From an uncultured Eubacteriales bacterium (lineage in GTDB: Bacteria; Bacillota; Clostridia; Oscillospirales; Acutalibacteraceae), in assembly GCA_949296825.1 (NCBI GenBank), contig CASFQZ010000032.1, positions 1 to 56,049 of the forward strand: a stretch of 56,049 nt of DNA, written 5' to 3'. The position numbers were made by a program, and so were the translations under genes. This document shows positions 3,103 to 10,698 of the stretch, in pieces (the first letter of the stretch is position 1; every line of letters begins with the position of its first letter). Under the pieces are notes generated by a model, which saw only the letters and a program-made list of their open reading frames with translations, had not been told where the DNA came from and searched no databases.

Positions 3103-3150
3103 TTTCTGTTCGTCAAAAGGGCGCTCGCCCTTTGCAAATGCTTCCCCCCG

Positions 3151-3184
3151 CCGCCCGTTCCTTTGGGAACGGGCGGCTTTTTTT
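3151..3184 (+). terminator. intrinsic terminator after the propeller gene
   Basis: Perfect 11-bp stem CCGCCCGTTCC / GGAACGGGCGG with a TTTG loop, followed by a T-run. Confidence 0.9.
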
Positions 3185-3223: not shown

Positions 3224-3252
3224 TTGACTTTTTTTGGTGGTTAGTGTAGACT
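3224..3252 (+). promoter_or_regulatory. promoter of the NEAT/ABC/ECF operon
   Basis: TTGACT (3224-3229), 17-bp spacer, TAGACT (3247-3252). The -10 lies inside the first TTAGT-ACTAA operator, so repressor binding would block RNA polymerase. Confidence 0.65.
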
Positions 3253-3254
3253 AA
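3241..3254. promoter_or_regulatory. DtxR-like operator 1
   Basis: TTAGTGTAGACTAA is an inverted repeat (TTAGT / ACTAA, 4-bp centre). It keeps the TTAG--TAG-CTAA skeleton of DtxR/IdeR/MntR boxes and overlaps the -10. The repressor itself is not in the window. Confidence 0.6.
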
Positions 3255-3267
3255 TAGTTGTTAGGCA

Positions 3268-3311
3268 AGACAAACTTCGGCGGATTCTGACCCCGCCGTT
3301 GCTTTTTGTCT
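3268..3311 (+). other. leader hairpin between the two operators
   Basis: The transcribed leader can fold as AGACAAA..CGGCGG, an 8-9 nt loop and CCGCCG..TTTTTGTCT. The inner GC stem is followed by a short T-rich stretch, so it could act as a weak attenuator or simply as a stabilising stem. Confidence 0.4.
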
Positions 3312-3317
3312 GATGAG

Positions 3318-3331
3318 TTAGTCTAAACTAA
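3318..3331. promoter_or_regulatory. DtxR-like operator 2
   Basis: TTAGTCTAAACTAA has the same TTAGT-N4-ACTAA inverted repeat as operator 1, centred 77 bp downstream. It immediately precedes and partly overlaps the AGGAGG ribosome-binding site. Confidence 0.55.
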
Positions 3332-3342
3332 GGAGGATGCTT

Positions 3343-4143
3343 ATGAAAAAAACGCTGACCTTCCTGATGGCGCTGGCAGTGGCGCTTTCGGGATTTTTTT
3401 ACGCTGCGGCACAGGGAGAGCTGCCGGCGGGGACCTATGAGGTGCCGGTGGAGCTCAGGCACGCCGAGGAGGACAAGACCTCCATGGGCGACAGCTTTCT
3501 GGTACACACCGGCATTTTAGAGGTGACCGAAAGCGGCAGCTTCCTGACGCTGGCTTCCGATTCCGTGATCCAGGGGATGCAGTTCTGGTATTACAACGAC
3601 GGCTCGGTCAGCGGCGATTCCACCGAGGTTCCCTCGGCGGGTACGGTAACCATCGCCGGGGAGAGCTACGAAACGACGTTCCGTTTCCCTCTGGTGGGCT
3701 CCGGGCAGCTGGTGGGCGTAATTTTTCAGGCGCCGATCATGCCGGTGCGTCCTTCCGCCCGTATCTATATTGATTACGCGAACGCGCAGCCGGTAACGTC
3801 CGCCGTCCCGGCGACAACCACCGCCCCGGCGACAACCACCGCCCCGGCGACAACCACCATCCCGGCGACAACCACCATCCCGGCGACAACCACCGCCCCG
3901 GCGACAACCACCATCCCGGCAACAGCCACCGCCCCGGCAACATCCTTGCCAGCGGCGACGGCGCCGGTCGCTGCGACGGTCACGGAGCGAACCACGGTGC
4001 CCGCCGAATCGATCACCGAAGCGGCACAGGAAACCGCCGGCGGCGTTTCGCCCTTCCTTTGGATTGGCATTGCGGCGGCATTGCTTGCCGCTGTTGCCGC
4101 AATCATCGTCGTTGTGGTGCTCCGCAAACGCAGAGGCTATTAA
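3343..4143 (+). CDS. membrane-anchored NEAT-domain protein (probable heme binding)
   Basis: A 266-residue surface protein: signal peptide (1-24), NEAT-like beta-sandwich (about 27-150), a Thr/Pro-rich linker of six-residue repeats (about 151-210), and a C-terminal membrane helix (about 238-260) ending in RKRRGY. NEAT domains bind heme or hemoproteins outside Gram-positive cells. The opening G-T-Y-E-V-P-V strand, the S47-M48 pair of the 3-10 helix region and the final strand ARIYIDYANAQP fit the family. The usual YxxxY heme-ligand pair is not evident: IYIDY offers only a YxxY spacing. The ATG at 3343 is preferred over the one at 3337 because AGGAGG (3331-3336) touches the latter. It is the first gene of an operon with ABC and ECF transporters, which supports heme capture. 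Confidence 0.75.
   Translation: MKKTLTFLMALAVALSGFFYAAAQGELPAGTYEVPVELRHAEEDKTSMGDSFLVHTGILEVTESGSFLTLASDSVIQGMQFWYYNDGSVSGDSTEVPSAGTVTIAGESYETTFRFPLVGSGQLVGVIFQAPIMPVRPSARIYIDYANAQPVTSAVPATTTAPATTTAPATTTIPATTTIPATTTAPATTTIPATATAPATSLPAATAPVAATVTERTTVPAESITEAAQETAGGVSPFLWIGIAAALLAAVAAIIVVVVLRKRRGY
3811..3945 (+). repeat. 18-bp tandem repeat coding for the Thr-Pro linker
   Basis: About seven in-frame units of GCGACAACCACC-GCCCCG (or -ATCCCG) encode A-T-T-T-A/I-P. The linker probably spans the cell wall. Copy number in such tracts commonly varies between strains. Confidence 0.85.
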
Positions 4144-4179
4144 CAGTTTGTTTCGTAGTGGGAAAAGAGGTTTTGCTCA

Positions 4180-5928
4180 TTGATCAAAACAAAATTGATC
4201 GGACTGGTGCGCCGGTCCAGGGGCGCGATCGCCCTGGTAGTGCTGAGCCAATGGGTCAGGCTGGCGGCGAATATCGTGATGGTTACGGCGGTGGCGGGGG
4301 CGCTGCGGACGCTTGCCGGCGGCGAGACGCTTTCGGGCAAACTGCTGCTTTTGCTGTTGGCGGCGGGGGTGCTGGCGGCAGCCGTTCGCTATGGATGCGA
4401 TGTATTTGCCTCGAATATTTCCTTCCGTGTTTCCGCCCGGGTAAAAAAGGAGCTGCGCGGCAGAATGTATGAAAAGCTGACGCGCCTGGGCTCTTCGTAT
4501 TCGGAAAAATTGCGTACCAGTGAAATTTTGCAGGTTTTTGTGGAGGGCGTGGATCAGCTGGAAATTTATTTCGGTAAATATCTGCCTCAATTTTTTTACA
4601 GTATGCTTGCGCCGGTGACGTTGTTCGTTCTTTTGTCCTTTGTCAGCCTGCGGGCGGCGGTGCTGCTTCTGGTCTGCGTGCCGCTGATCCCGCTGTCTAT
4701 TGTGGCGGTGCAGAAAATCGCCAAGCGGCTGCTGGCGAATTACTGGGGAAAATATACCGACCTGGGCGATACCTTCCTGGAAAATCTGCAAGGCTTGACC
4801 ACGCTGAAAATTTACCGCGCCGACGGCGAAAAGCACCGGGTCATGAACGAAAAAGCCGAGGCTTTCCGTAAAATCACCATGCGCGTTCTGACCATGCAGC
4901 TCAATTCCGTCACCGTGATGGACATCATCGCCTACGGCGGCAGCGCGGCGGGCGTGATCGTGGCGGTAAAGGAAGTGATCGAAGGCAGGCTGGATTTTTC
5001 CGGCGCCTTTCTGATTATTATGCTGGCGGCGGATTTCTTTTTGCCGCTGCGCGCGCTGGGGTCTTTTTTTCATGTGGCAATGAACGGCATGGCTGCCAGC
5101 GATAAGCTGTTCGCCATTCTGGAGACCGAGGAGGAGCCCGGCGGCACCCGGAGCGTCGAGGATGAAACGCCGTCGATTTCGGTGGAGCAGCTCAGCTTTT
5201 CCTATGACGGCTCCCGCAAGGCGCTAAACAATCTTTCCCTTTCGGTACCTGCCGGCGGCTTTGCCGCCATCGTCGGCGAATCGGGCTGCGGCAAGAGCAC
5301 GCTGGCGGCAGTGCTCAATGGAACCCGTCGGGGGTATAACGGGTCGGTGAAGCTTGGCAGCAAAGAGATCCGGGATGTGAGCGAAGAGAGTCTGAACCGG
5401 TTCGTAACCACGGTCGGCTGCGGCAGTCATCTGTTTGGCGGCACCGTTCGGGAAAATCTGCAAATCGCCAGGCCCGAAGCGACCGAAGATGAAATGATTG
5501 ACGCGCTGCGGCAGGTGCGGCTCTGGGCGTATCTTTCGACGCAAAAGGGACTGGATACCGTCCTTTCCCCGGCAGGCGCGAATTTTTCCGGCGGGCAGCG
5601 TCAGCGTCTGGCGCTGGCAAGGGCGCTTTTGCACGATACGCCGGTCTATCTGTTTGACGAGGCAACCTCCAATATCGACCCGGAGAGCGAGCGGGATATT
5701 CTTTCGGTGATCCGCCGCGCGGCGGGTAAGCGCACGGTTCTGATGATTACCCATCGGCTGGAAAATGCCGTCGGTGCGGACAAAATCTTTGTTTTGGGTG
5801 ACGGCACGCTCCTGGAAGAGGGCAGCCATGCGCAGCTGCTGGCGCAAAAAGGCGTATACGCCAAAATGTATTTCTCCCAGCGGGAGCTGGAAAAATTTGC
5901 GCGGAAGGGGGAAGGCGCAGATGCGTAA
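4180..5928 (+). CDS. ABC half-transporter, CydD-like (permease-ATPase fusion)
   Basis: A 582-residue exporter-fold half-transporter. About 300 residues of membrane domain with six predicted helices precede an ATPase domain. Visible motifs are Walker A GESGCGKST (from residue 366), the signature SGGQRQR (470) and Walker B VYLFDEATS (about 489). The segment around TLKIYRADGEKHRVMNEKAE resembles CydD/CydC, which export thiols and influence heme availability. The TTG start has AAGAGG about 9 nt upstream. It overlaps the next half-transporter by 8 bp, so the two probably form a heterodimer. Given the NEAT protein upstream and the ECF genes downstream, heme or a heme-related thiol is a plausible substrate, but this is inference. 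Confidence 0.85.
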   Translation: MIKTKLIGLVRRSRGAIALVVLSQWVRLAANIVMVTAVAGALRTLAGGETLSGKLLLLLLAAGVLAAAVRYGCDVFASNISFRVSARVKKELRGRMYEKLTRLGSSYSEKLRTSEILQVFVEGVDQLEIYFGKYLPQFFYSMLAPVTLFVLLSFVSLRAAVLLLVCVPLIPLSIVAVQKIAKRLLANYWGKYTDLGDTFLENLQGLTTLKIYRADGEKHRVMNEKAEAFRKITMRVLTMQLNSVTVMDIIAYGGSAAGVIVAVKEVIEGRLDFSGAFLIIMLAADFFLPLRALGSFFHVAMNGMAASDKLFAILETEEEPGGTRSVEDETPSISVEQLSFSYDGSRKALNNLSLSVPAGGFAAIVGESGCGKSTLAAVLNGTRRGYNGSVKLGSKEIRDVSEESLNRFVTTVGCGSHLFGGTVRENLQIARPEATEDEMIDALRQVRLWAYLSTQKGLDTVLSPAGANFSGGQRQRLALARALLHDTPVYLFDEATSNIDPESERDILSVIRRAAGKRTVLMITHRLENAVGADKIFVLGDGTLLEEGSHAQLLAQKGVYAKMYFSQRELEKFARKGEGADA

Positions 5929-7579
5929 CAGAAGAAGCGGACTTCGCATTATGGCGCGGCTGATCGGGTTGGTGAAGCCTCTTGCCGGTTTTATGGCGCT
6001 TGCCGTTCTCCTGGGCGTTGTTGGTTTTCTTTGCGCCATTTCCGTTACGGTGCTGGGCAGCGCCGCGCTGCTGCGCGCGCTGGACGGCGCGGCGCTTCTT
6101 GCGGGAAAGATCTTTGTCTGCCTCGGTGTTTTCGCTGTGGCGCGCGGATTGCTGCATTACGGAGAGCAGGCGTGCAACCATTACATCGCCTTTAAGCTTT
6201 TGGCGCTGATCCGCGACAAGGTTTTTGCCGCGCTGCGCCGTCTGGCGCCCGCCCGGCTGGAATGCCGCGACAAAGGGGATTTGATCAGTATGATCACCAG
6301 CGATATTGAGCTTTTAGAGGTTTTTTATGCCCATACCATCTCCCCGATTTGCATCGCCATTTTGACCTCGGCGGTGATGCTGGTCTTTTTCGGCAGGATG
6401 CATCCGCTGTTTGCGCTGGTTGCTTTGCTGGCGTATCTGACGGTGGGCGCCGCCGTGCCGCTGCTTTCCGCCCGGTTTGTGCGGCGGGACGGCATGGCGT
6501 ACCGGGACGGTGCCGGCGCGTTTTCGGGCTTTTTGCTGGATACGCTGCGCGGGCTGGGAGAAACGCTGCGCTATGGCGACCAGAACCGGCGCCGGGAAGA
6601 GATGAATCGCCGCTGTGACCGGCTGAATGAGGCGGGCAGACGGCTGAAACGCGCCGAAGGCCATATCGCCGCCGTCACCGATACGGTGATCCTATTCTTT
6701 TCCTTTGTCATGCTGCTGTGCGGTCTGGCTCTGGCGGGGGCAGGCAAGGTCGATTTCGACGGGGTCCTGCTTTCCACGGTAGGCATGATGAGCTCTTTCG
6801 GGCCGGTGGCGGCGCTCAGCGGTCTGACCGGCAATTTGACCCACACGCTGGCGGCGGGGGATCGGGTGCTCTCGATTTTGGAAGAAGCTCCGGTGGTCGA
6901 GGAGATAAAAAACGGCAAAGATATTTCCTTCGACGGCATGGCTTGCGAGAATATCACCTTCGCCTATGAAGAATCGCCGGTGCTGCGGGATTTTTCGGTG
7001 CAGCTGCCTGAAACGGGCATCATCGGCATCACCGGCAAAAGCGGCGCGGGCAAGTCCACCGCGCTGCGGCTGCTGATGCGCTTCTGGGATCCGGATCGGG
7101 GCAGGGTAACGATGTCCGGCGAGGATCTGCGGCGCATCAACACCGACAGCCTCCGCCAAAACCAGAGTCTGGTCACCCAGGAAACGGTGCTCTTCCACGA
7201 CACCATTGCGGCGAATATCCTCGTCGGCAGGCAAAATGCGAGCCGTGAGCAGGTCGTGCAGGCAGCGAAGATGGCGGCGATCCACGACTTTATTCTGACC
7301 CTGCCCAAGGGCTATGACACCGATGTCGGCGAGCTGGGCGATCTGCTGTCCGACGGAGAAAAACAGCGCATCGGTCTGGCGCGCGCCTTCCTCAGCGACG
7401 CGCCGATGCTGCTTTTGGATGAGCCGACGAGCAATCTGGACAGCTTGAACGAGGGCAGGATCCTGGCGGTTCTGGATCGCGTCCGCAGCAAAAAATCCAT
7501 CGTGCTGGTTTCTCATCGCCCGTCCACCAAGGGCATTGCCGATCGGTCCTGTACCGTTAGCTTCGGCAGAAAATCCTGA
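5921..7579 (+). CDS. ABC half-transporter, CydC-like (permease-ATPase fusion)
   Basis: A 552-residue partner of the preceding gene: membrane domain about 1-310, ATPase domain about 335-552. Walker A is GKSGAGKST (near 372) and Walker B MLLLDEPTSNLDS. The signature reads LSDGEKQR rather than LSGGQ, a mild change typical of asymmetric heterodimers with one less active site. The start ATG at 5921 lies inside the end of the upstream gene (ATGCGTAA overlap) behind a GGGGGAAG site, which implies translational coupling. Substrate not determined. A longer reading frame begins upstream inside the neighbour, but it lacks a ribosome-binding site and would add out-of-family sequence. Confidence 0.85.
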   Translation: MRNRRSGLRIMARLIGLVKPLAGFMALAVLLGVVGFLCAISVTVLGSAALLRALDGAALLAGKIFVCLGVFAVARGLLHYGEQACNHYIAFKLLALIRDKVFAALRRLAPARLECRDKGDLISMITSDIELLEVFYAHTISPICIAILTSAVMLVFFGRMHPLFALVALLAYLTVGAAVPLLSARFVRRDGMAYRDGAGAFSGFLLDTLRGLGETLRYGDQNRRREEMNRRCDRLNEAGRRLKRAEGHIAAVTDTVILFFSFVMLLCGLALAGAGKVDFDGVLLSTVGMMSSFGPVAALSGLTGNLTHTLAAGDRVLSILEEAPVVEEIKNGKDISFDGMACENITFAYEESPVLRDFSVQLPETGIIGITGKSGAGKSTALRLLMRFWDPDRGRVTMSGEDLRRINTDSLRQNQSLVTQETVLFHDTIAANILVGRQNASREQVVQAAKMAAIHDFILTLPKGYDTDVGELGDLLSDGEKQRIGLARAFLSDAPMLLLDEPTSNLDSLNEGRILAVLDRVRSKKSIVLVSHRPSTKGIADRSCTVSFGRKS

Positions 7580-7592
7580 AGGAGGGTCTCTG

Positions 7593-7940
7593 ATGAAAAA
7601 AACAAGAATCGAACGGGAAAAGCAAATGCTGCCCGATATGATTGCCCTGTACTGTCACGGCAGACACGGCACAAAAAAAGGCGAGCTCTGCGAGGACTGC
7701 CGCCGGCTGCAGGGGTATGCCCTCTCCCGGCTGGAACACTGTAAATTCGGCAACGACAAAACCTTTTGCAGCCAGTGCCCGGTCCATTGCTACAAGCCGG
7801 ATATGCGCGAAAAAATCCGGGATGTAATGAAATATGCCGGACCGCGCTCCCTTTTTCACCATCCCATCGCCGGAGCCGCCCACGCCGTCAGTACCATGCG
7901 GGGCGTGATCCGCGCAAAAAAACAGAAAAAACAGGGCTGA
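7593..7940 (+). CDS. YgbA_NO family (nitrous oxide-stimulated promoter) protein
   Basis: A 115-residue soluble, basic, Cys-rich protein. Cysteines sit in the patterns Y-C-H-G, C-E-D-C and C-S-Q-C-P-V-H-C, suggesting a bound metal or iron-sulfur centre. The sequence (REKQMLPDMIALYCHGRH, FCSQCPVHCYKP) matches the Pfam family known as YgbA_NO, whose biochemical role is poorly known. The ATG follows a strong AAGGAGGG site. It lies between the ABC pair and the ECF genes, about 13 bp and 18 bp from each, so it is co-transcribed. In this context it may handle the imported metal or heme, or sense redox state. Confidence 0.75.
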   Translation: MKKTRIEREKQMLPDMIALYCHGRHGTKKGELCEDCRRLQGYALSRLEHCKFGNDKTFCSQCPVHCYKPDMREKIRDVMKYAGPRSLFHHPIAGAAHAVSTMRGVIRAKKQKKQG

Positions 7941-7958
7941 TTGCCGCAAGGAGTTTTT

Positions 7959-8555
7959 ATGAAACAGAAAAACATAGAAAAGAAAAATCCTTTCCGCGCC
8001 TTTAAATTAAAAGATTTCGTTTTTCGTGCCGTGCTTTCCGCCGCCATGACGCTGGCGGGCGGCGTTACCATGCCGCTGGTGATGCACACCACGCTGTTCG
8101 GTCTGCGCAATATGGTCGCGTCACCGCTTTATGCGCTCTTCTGCGCCATTGGGCTCTCCAAGGTGCGCAAGCCGGGCGCGCTGTCCGTCATTGGTCTGTT
8201 TTCCGGCGCGCCGCTGGCGTTTATGTCCGTAGTGATGTTTTTCAATAATCTGGTCGCCGGGATTCTGGCGGAGCTTTTGATGCTGCTGTTTTTCCGCAAT
8301 TATCAAAAAAAAGGCGCGATCCTGTTTACCGCCGGGATTTATATGCCCCTGTCGCTGCCGGTGACGCTTTTGTTCAGCATGTGGCTGAACGGCAGCAGCT
8401 TTTCCGACCTGGTCGCCGCGCCCATCCCCGCCATTTTTACCTCCATCGGTACCGTGATTTTAGGCTTTTTCGGGGCGTTTCTGGGCTGTAAAATCGCAAA
8501 GGAGCTGCAAAAGGCGGGCAAGCTGCGCCCCTATGGAGAGGATGCCGATGCTTGA
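7959..8555 (+). CDS. ECF transporter S component, MptD/Trep_Strep family
   Basis: A 198-residue integral membrane protein with about six hydrophobic segments. It has the family's characteristic layout: an N-terminal basic stretch, then PLVMHTTLFGLRNMVASPLYA and late helices FTSIGTVILGFFGAFLG. S components bind the substrate and dock onto the shared EcfT-EcfA module. The next two genes supply that module, so this is a dedicated group I ECF system. The ATG at 7959 has AAGGAG 5-6 nt upstream. The end overlaps the T gene start by 8 bp. Its substrate is not fixed by sequence; the operon context favours heme or an iron complex. Confidence 0.82.
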   Translation: MKQKNIEKKNPFRAFKLKDFVFRAVLSAAMTLAGGVTMPLVMHTTLFGLRNMVASPLYALFCAIGLSKVRKPGALSVIGLFSGAPLAFMSVVMFFNNLVAGILAELLMLLFFRNYQKKGAILFTAGIYMPLSLPVTLLFSMWLNGSSFSDLVAAPIPAIFTSIGTVILGFFGAFLGCKIAKELQKAGKLRPYGEDADA

Positions 8556-9231
8556 GTTCTTCCACGCCAAAAAACCGCTCTTCCCGCCGGTGGGGTTCCT
8601 CTGCTCCCTTCTGGCGCTGGGCGTCGGTATGGCATATTCCTCCCATCTCGTCCTTTACGGGTATATTGCCGCGCTGGCTCTTCTGTTTGCGCTGTTCGGG
8701 CTTTGGCGAGCGGTGCTGGGCGCAGGGCTGATGATGGGCTGCTTCGGTCTTCTGACCGGCGTGCTGTCTTGTCTGACGGCAGGCTCCTTCGCTTCCTTTT
8801 TTGAAACACTGGGGCGCTGTCTTTTGTTGGGTGTCGCCGCCGTGCCGATGCTTTCGCTCCCCGCCGCCGATATGACGCGCAGCTTGCGGCAAATGAAATG
8901 CCCCGGCGCCCTGACGCTGGGTATTCTGGTCACAATCCGTTTTATCCCGGTGCTGGTGGGCGAGGTGCGGCAGATTCGCGAGGCGATGAAGACCCGGGGC
9001 GCCGGTTCGGCGTGGCGCCGTCCGCAAACGATATACCGCGCCTTTTTTATCCCGCTGACCATGCGGATCCTCGGGATTTCCGACGCGCTGTCGCTGTCGC
9101 TGGAAACCCGGGGCTTCCGTTTGAAGAATAAAGATGCAAGCGTCTTCCGTCCGGTGCGCTTTGGCTGGCGGGACGGCGTGTTTGCCGTCGGCACGGGGAT
9201 CCTTTCCGTTTTATTGGGGGTGCTGGCATGA
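8548..9231 (+). CDS. ecfT: ECF transporter transmembrane component EcfT
   Basis: A 227-residue membrane protein with an N-terminal helical bundle and a C-terminal cytosolic coupling region. It carries two Arg-Gly motifs, MKTRGA and LETRGF, the EcfT signatures that contact the two ATPases. The third of three nearby ATGs (8533, 8542, 8548) is chosen because GGAGAGG lies 6 nt upstream of it. It overlaps the S gene upstream and shares ATGA with the ATPase gene downstream. It transmits ATP-driven movement to the S component. Confidence 0.85.
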   Translation: MLEFFHAKKPLFPPVGFLCSLLALGVGMAYSSHLVLYGYIAALALLFALFGLWRAVLGAGLMMGCFGLLTGVLSCLTAGSFASFFETLGRCLLLGVAAVPMLSLPAADMTRSLRQMKCPGALTLGILVTIRFIPVLVGEVRQIREAMKTRGAGSAWRRPQTIYRAFFIPLTMRILGISDALSLSLETRGFRLKNKDASVFRPVRFGWRDGVFAVGTGILSVLLGVLA

Positions 9232-10655
9232 AAAAAGCCGTAGAGGTCCGGGATTTGAGCTTTTCCTATCCCGGCGAGACGAGAAAAATTCTCGACCACG
9301 CCGATTTTACTTTGGAATATGGTGAATTTGCGGTTCTTTCCGGCATTTCCGGCGAGGGAAAAACTACGCTGCTGGGCTTGTTGAACGGGGTGATCCCCTT
9401 CCTGACACCGGGAAAGCGGGAGGGCAAAATCTTTCTTGCCGGGGAGGATTGCACCGACCGCAAGGCGGGGGAGCGGGCGTTTTTCGCAGGCACTGTGCTG
9501 CAAAACGCCGACGAGCAGATCGTTTACGAAAAAGCGGCGGACGAAGCGGCATTTGGCTGTGAAAACCTGAACCTTCCGCCGGAGGAGATCGAAGGGCGGG
9601 TCGATGCCAGCCTGAAGCTGCTGCGTATCGCCCCGGATTCGTCCACCCGCACTCTGTCCGGCGGGCAGAAACAGCGGCTGATCACCGCCGCCACGCTGGC
9701 GATGGGGCAGCGCATCCTGTTTTTGGACGAGCCTCTTGCCAATCTGGATCGGGCAGGGGCGCTGCTGCTTTTGCAGACACTAAAAGATTTGACAAAGCAG
9801 GGCTGCGCCGTGCTGCTCATTGAGCACCGGTTGGATTTGGTGCTGCCCTTTGCCGACTCGGTCTACCGACTGCGGCAGGGAAAAATCGAGCGGGTCGCCA
9901 ACGTTCCCGCGCTGCTGGCGGAGAACCGTCGTCTGCTGCCGGCGTCGCAGGCACAAACCGGCGGCGGCAGCCCGCTGGTGGAGCTGGCGCATATTCGTTA
10001 TGCGCCGGGCAAAACGCCGCTTTTGCGAGACATCAGTCTTTCGGTACGGGAAGGGGAGCGGGTGTGGCTTCTGGGGGAAAACGGCTGCGGCACAACGACG
10101 CTTCTGCGGCTGATGGCGCGGCTCATTCGCCCCGACGGCGGCGCTTATCGGCAAAGCCTGCTGCCGGAGAAAGGCAGACGTCCCTCCGCCCGCTGGTTCC
10201 GCGCCGCCGGGTATGTATATCAGAATCCGTCATATCAATTGTTTATGCCGACGGTCCGTGATGAATTGGCGGTGGCGGCGCCCGAGGACGCTTATGCCGT
10301 CCGGATGGCGGAGCTCTTCGGCTTGTCCGAATTACTGGACCGGCATCCCCACGCCCTGTCGGAAGGGCAAAAACGCCGTCTCGGCATCGCTGCGGTACTG
10401 GCAGGGCAGCCGCGGCTGGTTTTTCTGGATGAGCCGACGGTGGGACAGGATGCGGAAAATCTGAAACGCATCGGGTCGGCGCTGCAAACGCTGCGGCAGG
10501 AAACCGGCATGGCGACGGTCACCGTGACCCACGATATCCGCTGTGCCGCCGCCCTCTGCGACCGGGCGCTGCTTTTGGCGGACGGCGTGATCGCCGCACA
10601 GGGAAAGGCGCACCAGGCGGAAAACTATCTCTCCGGTCAGCCTTTGAACCAATAA
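9228..10655 (+). CDS. ecfA: ECF transporter ATPase, fused EcfA-EcfA' (second Walker A altered)
   Basis: A 475-residue tandem ATPase that supplies both EcfA subunits in one chain. Domain 1 (about 1-235) has Walker A SGEGKTT, signature LSGGQKQR and Walker B ILFLDEPLANLD. Domain 2 (about 250-470) has signature LSEGQKRR, Walker B LVFLDEPTVGQD and H-loop VTHD. Its Walker A reads GENGCGTTT: the ATP-binding lysine is Thr289 (codon ACA, 10092-10094), one base away from AAA. The protein would then have one impaired ATP site unless the base is an error. The start overlaps the ecfT stop (ATGA). It is the last gene of the operon, followed by a strong terminator. Confidence 0.88.
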   Translation: MKKAVEVRDLSFSYPGETRKILDHADFTLEYGEFAVLSGISGEGKTTLLGLLNGVIPFLTPGKREGKIFLAGEDCTDRKAGERAFFAGTVLQNADEQIVYEKAADEAAFGCENLNLPPEEIEGRVDASLKLLRIAPDSSTRTLSGGQKQRLITAATLAMGQRILFLDEPLANLDRAGALLLLQTLKDLTKQGCAVLLIEHRLDLVLPFADSVYRLRQGKIERVANVPALLAENRRLLPASQAQTGGGSPLVELAHIRYAPGKTPLLRDISLSVREGERVWLLGENGCGTTTLLRLMARLIRPDGGAYRQSLLPEKGRRPSARWFRAAGYVYQNPSYQLFMPTVRDELAVAAPEDAYAVRMAELFGLSELLDRHPHALSEGQKRRLGIAAVLAGQPRLVFLDEPTVGQDAENLKRIGSALQTLRQETGMATVTVTHDIRCAAALCDRALLLADGVIAAQGKAHQAENYLSGQPLNQ

Positions 10656-10698
10656 AAATCACCGCCCGTTCCTGCGCAGGAACAGGCGGTGATTTTTT
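10654..10698. terminator. bidirectional intrinsic terminator
   Basis: A long stem (AATCACCGCC-CGTTCCTG / CAGGAACA-GGCGGTGATT) is flanked by A- and T-runs. It ends the ECF operon (plus) and the endonuclease-like gene (minus). Confidence 0.9.

Follow-up and report, generated by a model that had tools for sequence, protein, structure and literature searches.

We analyzed a window of 56,049 nt (the whole stretch of DNA under study, on contig CASFQZ010000032.1 of assembly GCA_949296825.1, from an uncultured Eubacteriales bacterium of the Acutalibacteraceae) and describe here one operon on its + strand, at positions 3343-10655, that is probably devoted to heme acquisition. Its first gene encodes a membrane-anchored NEAT-like protein (3343-4143, with the NEAT domain at 3415-3792). 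There follow two ATP-binding cassette (ABC) half-transporters, the CydD-like ABC1 (4180-5928, with a TTG start) and the CydC-like ABC2 (5921-7579), a Cys-rich protein of the YgbA_NO family (7593-7940) and the parts of an energy-coupling factor (ECF) transporter, namely a Trep_Strep/MptD-like S component, presumed to be the membrane heme receptor (7959-8555), a T component of the CbiQ family (8548-9231) and a fused A-A component, a single protein with two ECF-type ATPase domains (9228-10655). The original prediction, made from the sequence alone, had spoken of six genes in tight overlap; the count is in fact seven, with intergenic gaps ranging from -8 to +36 nt. The single promoter and terminator that it had proposed were both recovered, as a promoter-like site at 3224-3252 on the + strand (TTGACT-17-TAGACT, a consensus match only, at 9 of 12 positions) found by scan, and as a terminator-like hairpin with a T-run at about 10657-10697 on the + strand, seen by eye and absent from the motif-scan list, which stands between the operon and the convergent gene. 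Upstream of the operon, the motif scan also placed a strong terminator-like hairpin at 3150-3177. Two palindromes were taken as operators. Operator 1, identified by its sequence pattern (TTAGTGTAGACTAA, 3241-3254; in its 16-bp form GTTAG-N6-CTAAT), contains the -10 hexamer of the promoter-like site, and operator 2 (TTAGTCTAAACTAA, 3318-3331) lies directly upstream of the ribosome-binding site.

Read by eye, the NEAT protein comprises a signal peptide, a TTTAPA-rich stalk and a C-terminal transmembrane helix, and no LPXTG motif was seen in it. A structure model of the window protein confirmed the NEAT beta-sandwich fold, such that the domain call of the original prediction held, though its Pfam score is below the cut-off. 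The window domain is 52% identical to that of the relative at locus L136, which, together with those at L138 and L142, exceeds the Pfam cut-off; the relatives at L135 (28.9), L145, L146 and L149 fall below it. As a lone query, the window NEAT protein matched no NEAT chain in the PDB. M50 and M135 (NEAT protein numbering) pair in the alignment with M28 and M138 of the 9w5y chain, the spacing of which (110) is the same as that of Met997-Met1107, the Met heme ligands of Shr NEAT2 (PMC12796733). Two long-loop NEAT domains, from the other loci L084 and L088, are part of the profile that matched Shr NEAT2 and possibly carry much of the score. M50 and M135, both at Shr NEAT2 axial positions, are thus candidate heme ligands. 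Heme capture by NEAT domains would be common to the Isd system and the window operon. Isd-type NEAT domains, however, use Tyr ligands (PMC12796733) and Isd anchoring relies on sortase (PMC5026354), whereas in the window protein neither the YXXXY heme motif of Isd-type domains nor a sortase motif was seen. Clostridial NEAT domains have been described as being without YXXXY while retaining a Met in the b7-b8 loop (PMC4143258).

The Pfam ABC domains of the operon proteins are strong and above the curated cut-offs and, with CydD- and CydC-like transmembrane parts, they bear out the two exporter-type half-transporters that had been predicted. In PDB searches with whole chains, generic ABC exporters dominated, and queries with the transmembrane parts were the informative ones: the closest solved structure was CydD for ABC1 (E 6.6e-21) and CydC for ABC2 (E 1.3e-11). 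In CydDC, the heme is coordinated by two histidines, H85 of CydC and H312 of CydD; the H85A substitution abrogates function (PMC10374445). H88 of ABC2 aligns with CydC H85 and is His in 29 of 29 sequences, and H298 of ABC1, which aligns with CydD H312, is His in 28 of 28 (all sequences from the fetched loci scoring above 330 bits, the window's included). In addition, CydC R136 and R81 correspond in ABC2 to His139 and Gln84, respectively, each kept in 29 of 29. In both its closest structures and its two conserved axial heme histidines the pair thus resembles CydDC, and it probably works like it. Cytochrome bd (PF01654), which CydDC is known to serve, was unmatched in 41 of the 42 genomes in which ABC2 had a match, and the window's genome is one of the 41; it should be noted that this set was chosen by ABC2 alone, with the adjoining ABC1 being seen in the fetched loci.

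For the ECF transporter, the T component matches CbiQ (56.1 bits, Pfam cut-off 25), and Pfam places two ABC stretches within the single chain of the fused A component. S, T and A-A are encoded together in 17 of the 18 loci described below, the contig of the remaining one (L144) ending after T. The S, T and fused A parts of the original prediction thus stand as components encoded together, whereas the Trep_Strep/MptD matches of the S component are under the cut-offs. PF09605 was matched by 15 of the 18 S sequences at E<=0.01 (best 3.6e-10), and ABC_cobalt was also matched, by four of the 18 (best E 6.1e-6). In the S alignment, M93 is present in 18 of 18 sequences and M89 in 17 of 18. The YgbA_NO call, made earlier for a Cys-rich protein, is firm, at 136.7 bits for PF11756 (cut-off 25) and 126 for NF007714 (cut-off 88). 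C22, C51, C60, C63 and C67 are invariant in 16 aligned sequences, and H26, C34 and C37 are kept in at least 90% of them. The YgbA model is mostly helical (pLDDT 85.8) and matched nothing in the PDB at E<=0.001 (best 1.6), so that the fold suggests no chemistry. In E. coli, ygbA is under NsrR and nitric oxide (NO) control and is dispensable for one NO-scavenging activity (PMC5320621).

The gene set was searched for in other genomes, as the original prediction had proposed, and it recurs in shuffled order. A scan with three S sequences yielded 16 loci, clostridial by title except for one from Treponemataceae, and with neither Streptococcus nor Staphylococcus, the genera of SiaF and LhaS, represented; together with the window and L115 these make 18. 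ABC1, ABC2, S, T and A-A are all found together in 16 of the 18, YgbA in 11 and a NEAT match likewise in 11, the match at L115 being a regulator fusion. When considering these counts, it should be noted that the contigs of L138, L139, L144 and L147 end inside or just beside the operon (L138 begins inside ABC2 and L144 stops just after T, without the pair upstream), that L148 is the same record as L055, and that the NEAT profile used was built from 15 sequences, seven of them from these loci, with L115, L146, L148 and L150 not in the profile. The order NEAT-ABC1-ABC2-YgbA-S-T-AA is shared by the window and L135, L136 presents NEAT-S-T-AA-ABC1-ABC2-YgbA, L142 presents YgbA-ABC1-ABC2-S-T-AA-NEAT, and L145, L146 and L148-L150 present YgbA-NEAT-ABC1-ABC2-S-T-AA. 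In other clostridia, the pair, often with YgbA, lies near NEAT genes and a binding-protein/FecCD-type importer (L041 with L129, L126 and L067; importers assigned by eye). Within a class sample of 393 genomes, YgbA was matched in 32, NEAT in 27 and ABC2 (E<=1e-100) in 42. With the window's own genome left out (n=392) and kinship uncorrected, ABC2 and NEAT co-occur in 22 genomes vs. 2.7 expected, ABC2 and YgbA in 18 vs. 3.2, and YgbA and NEAT in 10 vs. 2.1. Where both ABC2 and NEAT are present, they lie on the same contig at most 10 kb apart in 13 of 23 genomes (a hand count that includes the own genome). A chance neighbourhood was rejected given the ABC2/NEAT co-occurrence and the 16 of 18 loci that share the set. 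In the order sample, the S protein found two matches among 197 genomes, itself and a spurious one (in genome G012, dropped as an unrelated 786-aa protein by eye), and the ECF version is thus rare around the window's species.

Two observations on these loci are added here. At L137 (5128-6312), L139 (5105-6247) and L141 (5012-6244), a lipoprotein-like gene stands before the ABC pair, at the usual place of the NEAT gene; for the one tested, that of L137, a clear Pfam family was not found. The Treponemataceae bin carries S and T (L144:3758-5034) with one operator-like site upstream, which reflects either inter-phylum transfer or a misbinned contig.

With one mismatch allowed, TTAGTNTANACTAA occurs at four places in the 2.1-Mb assembly, two before the operon and two flanking feoA/feoB, one of the latter with a mismatch. 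Iron control of the operon appears likely, because the only other two copies in the assembly border these genes. FeoA and FeoB were assigned at the feo region by Pfam, and a second small FeoA-like frame by eye. The pattern KTTAG-N6-CTAAM finds only one feo site in the own genome, as the last base of the window sites is T or G. Across the related loci, GTTAG-N6-CTAAC, again with one mismatch allowed, is present at 14 of 16 operon heads, with 30 places in the 6,338 nt upstream of the 16 heads (up to 400 nt each) and 11 in the 293,191 nt elsewhere. Of these 11, three are in L147, where they separate two divergent genes that were taken to encode a NEAT protein and a regulator, and six are in L115, downstream of its operon, in a region in which one gene matches NEAT weakly. 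The test left out L138, which begins inside ABC2, and L150, which holds three operator-like sites near the YgbA start; the heads of L143 and L149 are approximate, and the near-copy loci L139/L140 and L148/L149 mean that the heads are not all independent. The two heads without the pattern are those of L147 and L145. The latter carries GTTCG-N6-CGAAC three times in its place (L145:5334-5540), with both half-sites changed together. The own genome has two Fe_dep_repress matches, on contigs C74 and C78; the C74 protein, of 120 residues, is DtxR-type and above both Pfam cut-offs, and it is a candidate regulator of the operon. In the own genome, feoB (L006:5787-7961, - strand, contig C85) is interrupted by an in-frame stop; both of the resulting frames carry part of FeoB_N, and the split may be a real loss or a sequence error.

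From the genes and signals described, we consider it quite probable that, in this anaerobic clostridium, the operon is repressed by iron and serves heme acquisition, its products importing heme. Ferrochelatase, the last enzyme of heme synthesis, was unmatched in the window's genome (92.38% complete). The heme import proposed in the original prediction is thus supported by the Met-Met NEAT domain, the CydDC histidines, the operators shared with feo, the lack of a ferrochelatase match and the recurrence of the gene set. At low iron, a DtxR-type repressor would leave the paired operators; the NEAT protein would then capture heme at the cell surface and pass it on to S, the turnover of which by the ECF module would release the heme inside. 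The CydDC-like pair would be a second heme mover, taking heme from the membrane and either completing import, in the manner of IrtAB, which completes the import of siderophores, or sending excess heme outward, in the manner of CydDC. A cytosolic role could fall to YgbA, with either the heme that enters or the iron released from it as its target. The imported heme may serve as a cofactor, as an iron source or as both, since no ferrochelatase was found.

The unit is most likely related to streptococcal sia and to cht of Clostridium perfringens, with an ECF importer replacing the binding-protein importer. The nearest system in gene content is sia, which reportedly reads shr-shp-siaABC-siaDE-siaFGH and, besides the ECF unit siaFGH, has an exporter-type pair in siaDE, such that the sia analogy drawn in the original prediction would extend further than proposed. 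sia has a Shr-sized receptor and the SiaABC binding protein and permease, whereas the window operon has neither and adds YgbA_NO. The sia operon has been described as an iron-regulated ten-gene operon with NEAT proteins that ligate heme through Met (PMC12796733). In the cht locus (chtDE, srt, chtABC1, chtC2 and chtC3), as in the window, NEAT genes stand beside a permease-ATPase/ABC pair; there they are co-transcribed with two permease-ATPase fusion genes and have an iron-type operator upstream (PMC5026354). The cht locus, however, carries a binding protein, permease, ATPase and sortase and a reported Fur box (PMC5026354), whereas the window has the ECF transporter and a palindrome of the GTTAG-N6-CTAAC type. 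LhaSTA of Staphylococcus lugdunensis is an iron-regulated ECF transporter that binds heme and allows the use of heme iron; it sits in the isd locus, and the available text mentions neither a CydDC-like pair nor YgbA (PMC7299338), both of which are present in the window operon. The novelty of the window unit is that ECF replaces the binding-protein importer and that YgbA is added. This gene combination was not found described among the papers listed in the capped literature searches, as judged by titles and the start of abstracts, with most subscription journals and the SiaFGH paper lying outside these lists.

Some of the results weigh against heme import and should be considered when referring to it. 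The window protein scores 22.7 for Pfam NEAT (PF05031, cut-off 32.8), over profile positions 3-67 only, and among the 18 loci NEAT was unmatched in seven, as was YgbA in seven. The ABC pair is under the NCBIfam equivalog cut-offs for CydD (TIGR02857, 405.1 vs. 435) and CydC (TIGR02868, 297.7 vs. 329.05) and was therefore not filed as CydDC, from which it also differs by the lack of a cytochrome bd match in the window's genome. Of four other half-transporters used as a control, two have His where ABC2 has H88 and none has it where ABC1 has H298. This control is small and is weak for H88, and each of the four comes from a locus with NEAT genes. CydDC itself, moreover, moves heme outward (PMC10374445). 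The S component scores 23.1 for Trep_Strep (PF09605, cut-off 28.7) and 27.3 for TIGR02185 (cut-off 76.45), and no His reaches the 85% listing level in the 18 S sequences, none being invariant, whereas LhaS was reported with spectra that suggest His coordination of heme (PMC7299338). As to the operators, a reversed control pattern is no less frequent in the genome (6 places vs. 4), so that the weight rests on the positions of the sites and not on their number.

Of the alternatives, the one that survives best, and which we judge unlikely, is import of a different iron complex or tetrapyrrole (a siderophore, a corrinoid or a heme breakdown product) by an operon whose NEAT domain has lost heme binding. 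Some NEAT domains indeed do not bind heme, and the absent YXXXY motif, the ABC_cobalt matches of four S sequences and the three loci with a lipoprotein-like gene before the pair and no NEAT match would all fit such a ligand; the NEAT domain, however, keeps both heme-ligand Met positions of Shr NEAT2, the pair keeps both heme histidines of CydDC, and ferrochelatase was not found in the genome. We consider it quite unlikely that the operon provides heme relief, with the CydDC-like pair expelling toxic heme and the ECF part recovering something else. While CydDC exports heme (PMC10374445) and exporter-type folds usually export, the operator-like sites common to the feo region predict expression at iron scarcity and not at heme excess, and the NEAT protein and ECF importer belong to the same transcription unit. 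That the pair is an ordinary CydDC, serving cytochrome bd or thiol export in an incidental ECF neighbourhood, is very improbable despite NCBIfam scores near the CydD and CydC cut-offs, as its cytochrome bd form was rejected by the missing PF01654 match in 41 of 42 genomes, the pair accompanies S-T-A-A at 16 of the 18 loci, and ABC2 tends to occur in the same genomes as NEAT.

If heme import holds, the operon unites an ECF importer and an exporter-type pair in one unit, with the residues named, and links YgbA_NO proteins with heme or iron. It would thereby combine components that have mainly been reported from different heme systems. Experimental work on ECF transporters for heme is scarce, and the available text on cht gives no role to the exporter-type pair beside the NEAT genes (PMC5026354). 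The operon also suggests how anaerobes that possibly cannot complete their own heme synthesis compete for the molecule, and the operator motif lets the regulon be traced in other genomes. More tentatively, it is possible that a CydDC-type bis-His heme ABC transporter has been recruited as a core heme-uptake part by fermenting anaerobes without cytochrome bd, working beside an ECF importer and a Met NEAT relay, with YgbA_NO as the cytosolic partner that handles the arriving heme or its iron, and under DtxR-type repressors, relatives of which carry a NEAT-like domain and sense heme directly with it. The weak or absent NEAT matches at L115 and L147, together with the other sample caveats, make the odds of this combined picture slightly lower.

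The relatives in question are winged-helix (MarR/DtxR-like) regulators with a C-terminal NEAT-like domain, which lie near NEAT or ECF genes and show no signal peptide by eye. They were found at L115:11799-12617, L126:6164-7000, L127:3983-4861 (- strand), L129:5732-6574 (- strand) and perhaps L147:5396-6199. In Pfam, the L115 fusion scores 28.1 for MarR_2 (cut-off 27) and 27.6 for NEAT (cut-off 32.8), the L126 fusion 18.7 for NEAT and 19.3 for Fe_dep_repr_C (cut-off 27), and the L127 fusion 17.6 for NEAT; Pfam NEAT did not match the L147 regulator, the assignment of which rests on an alignment with 25% identity. When aligned by hhalign with the NEAT alignment, the C-terminal part of the five fusions gave a probability of 92.6 (E 4.6e-7, 74 columns), and it matches solved IsdX1 in the first half only (E 3.3e-5). 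A long match reaching the NEAT-like part was found in 12 of 47 genomes, four of these 12 having supplied alignment rows, and the own genome, in the same scan, matches the fusion query in the DNA-binding part only. Such a fusion is possibly a heme-sensing repressor. Downstream at L115, NEAT is matched weakly by one gene (23.2 bits, cut-off 32.8) and not at all by a second one that looked like NEAT by eye.

At L147:1885-12656, a divergent NEAT-like gene (without a Pfam NEAT match), a binding protein and a FecCD permease, all by eye, lie next to a full ABC1-ABC2-YgbA-S-T-AA set, with operator-like sites between. A second, more distant pair of ABC half-transporters was seen near NEAT and regulator genes at L128:14987-18541 and L129:8749-12277. 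Finally, a gene for a small membrane protein, identified at L041:7633-8022 (- strand) as DUF454 (123.7 bits, cut-off 35.1), adjoins the ABC pair or YgbA, and similar small membrane genes were recognized by eye at L042, L045, L048, L053, L056, L058, L063 and L126.

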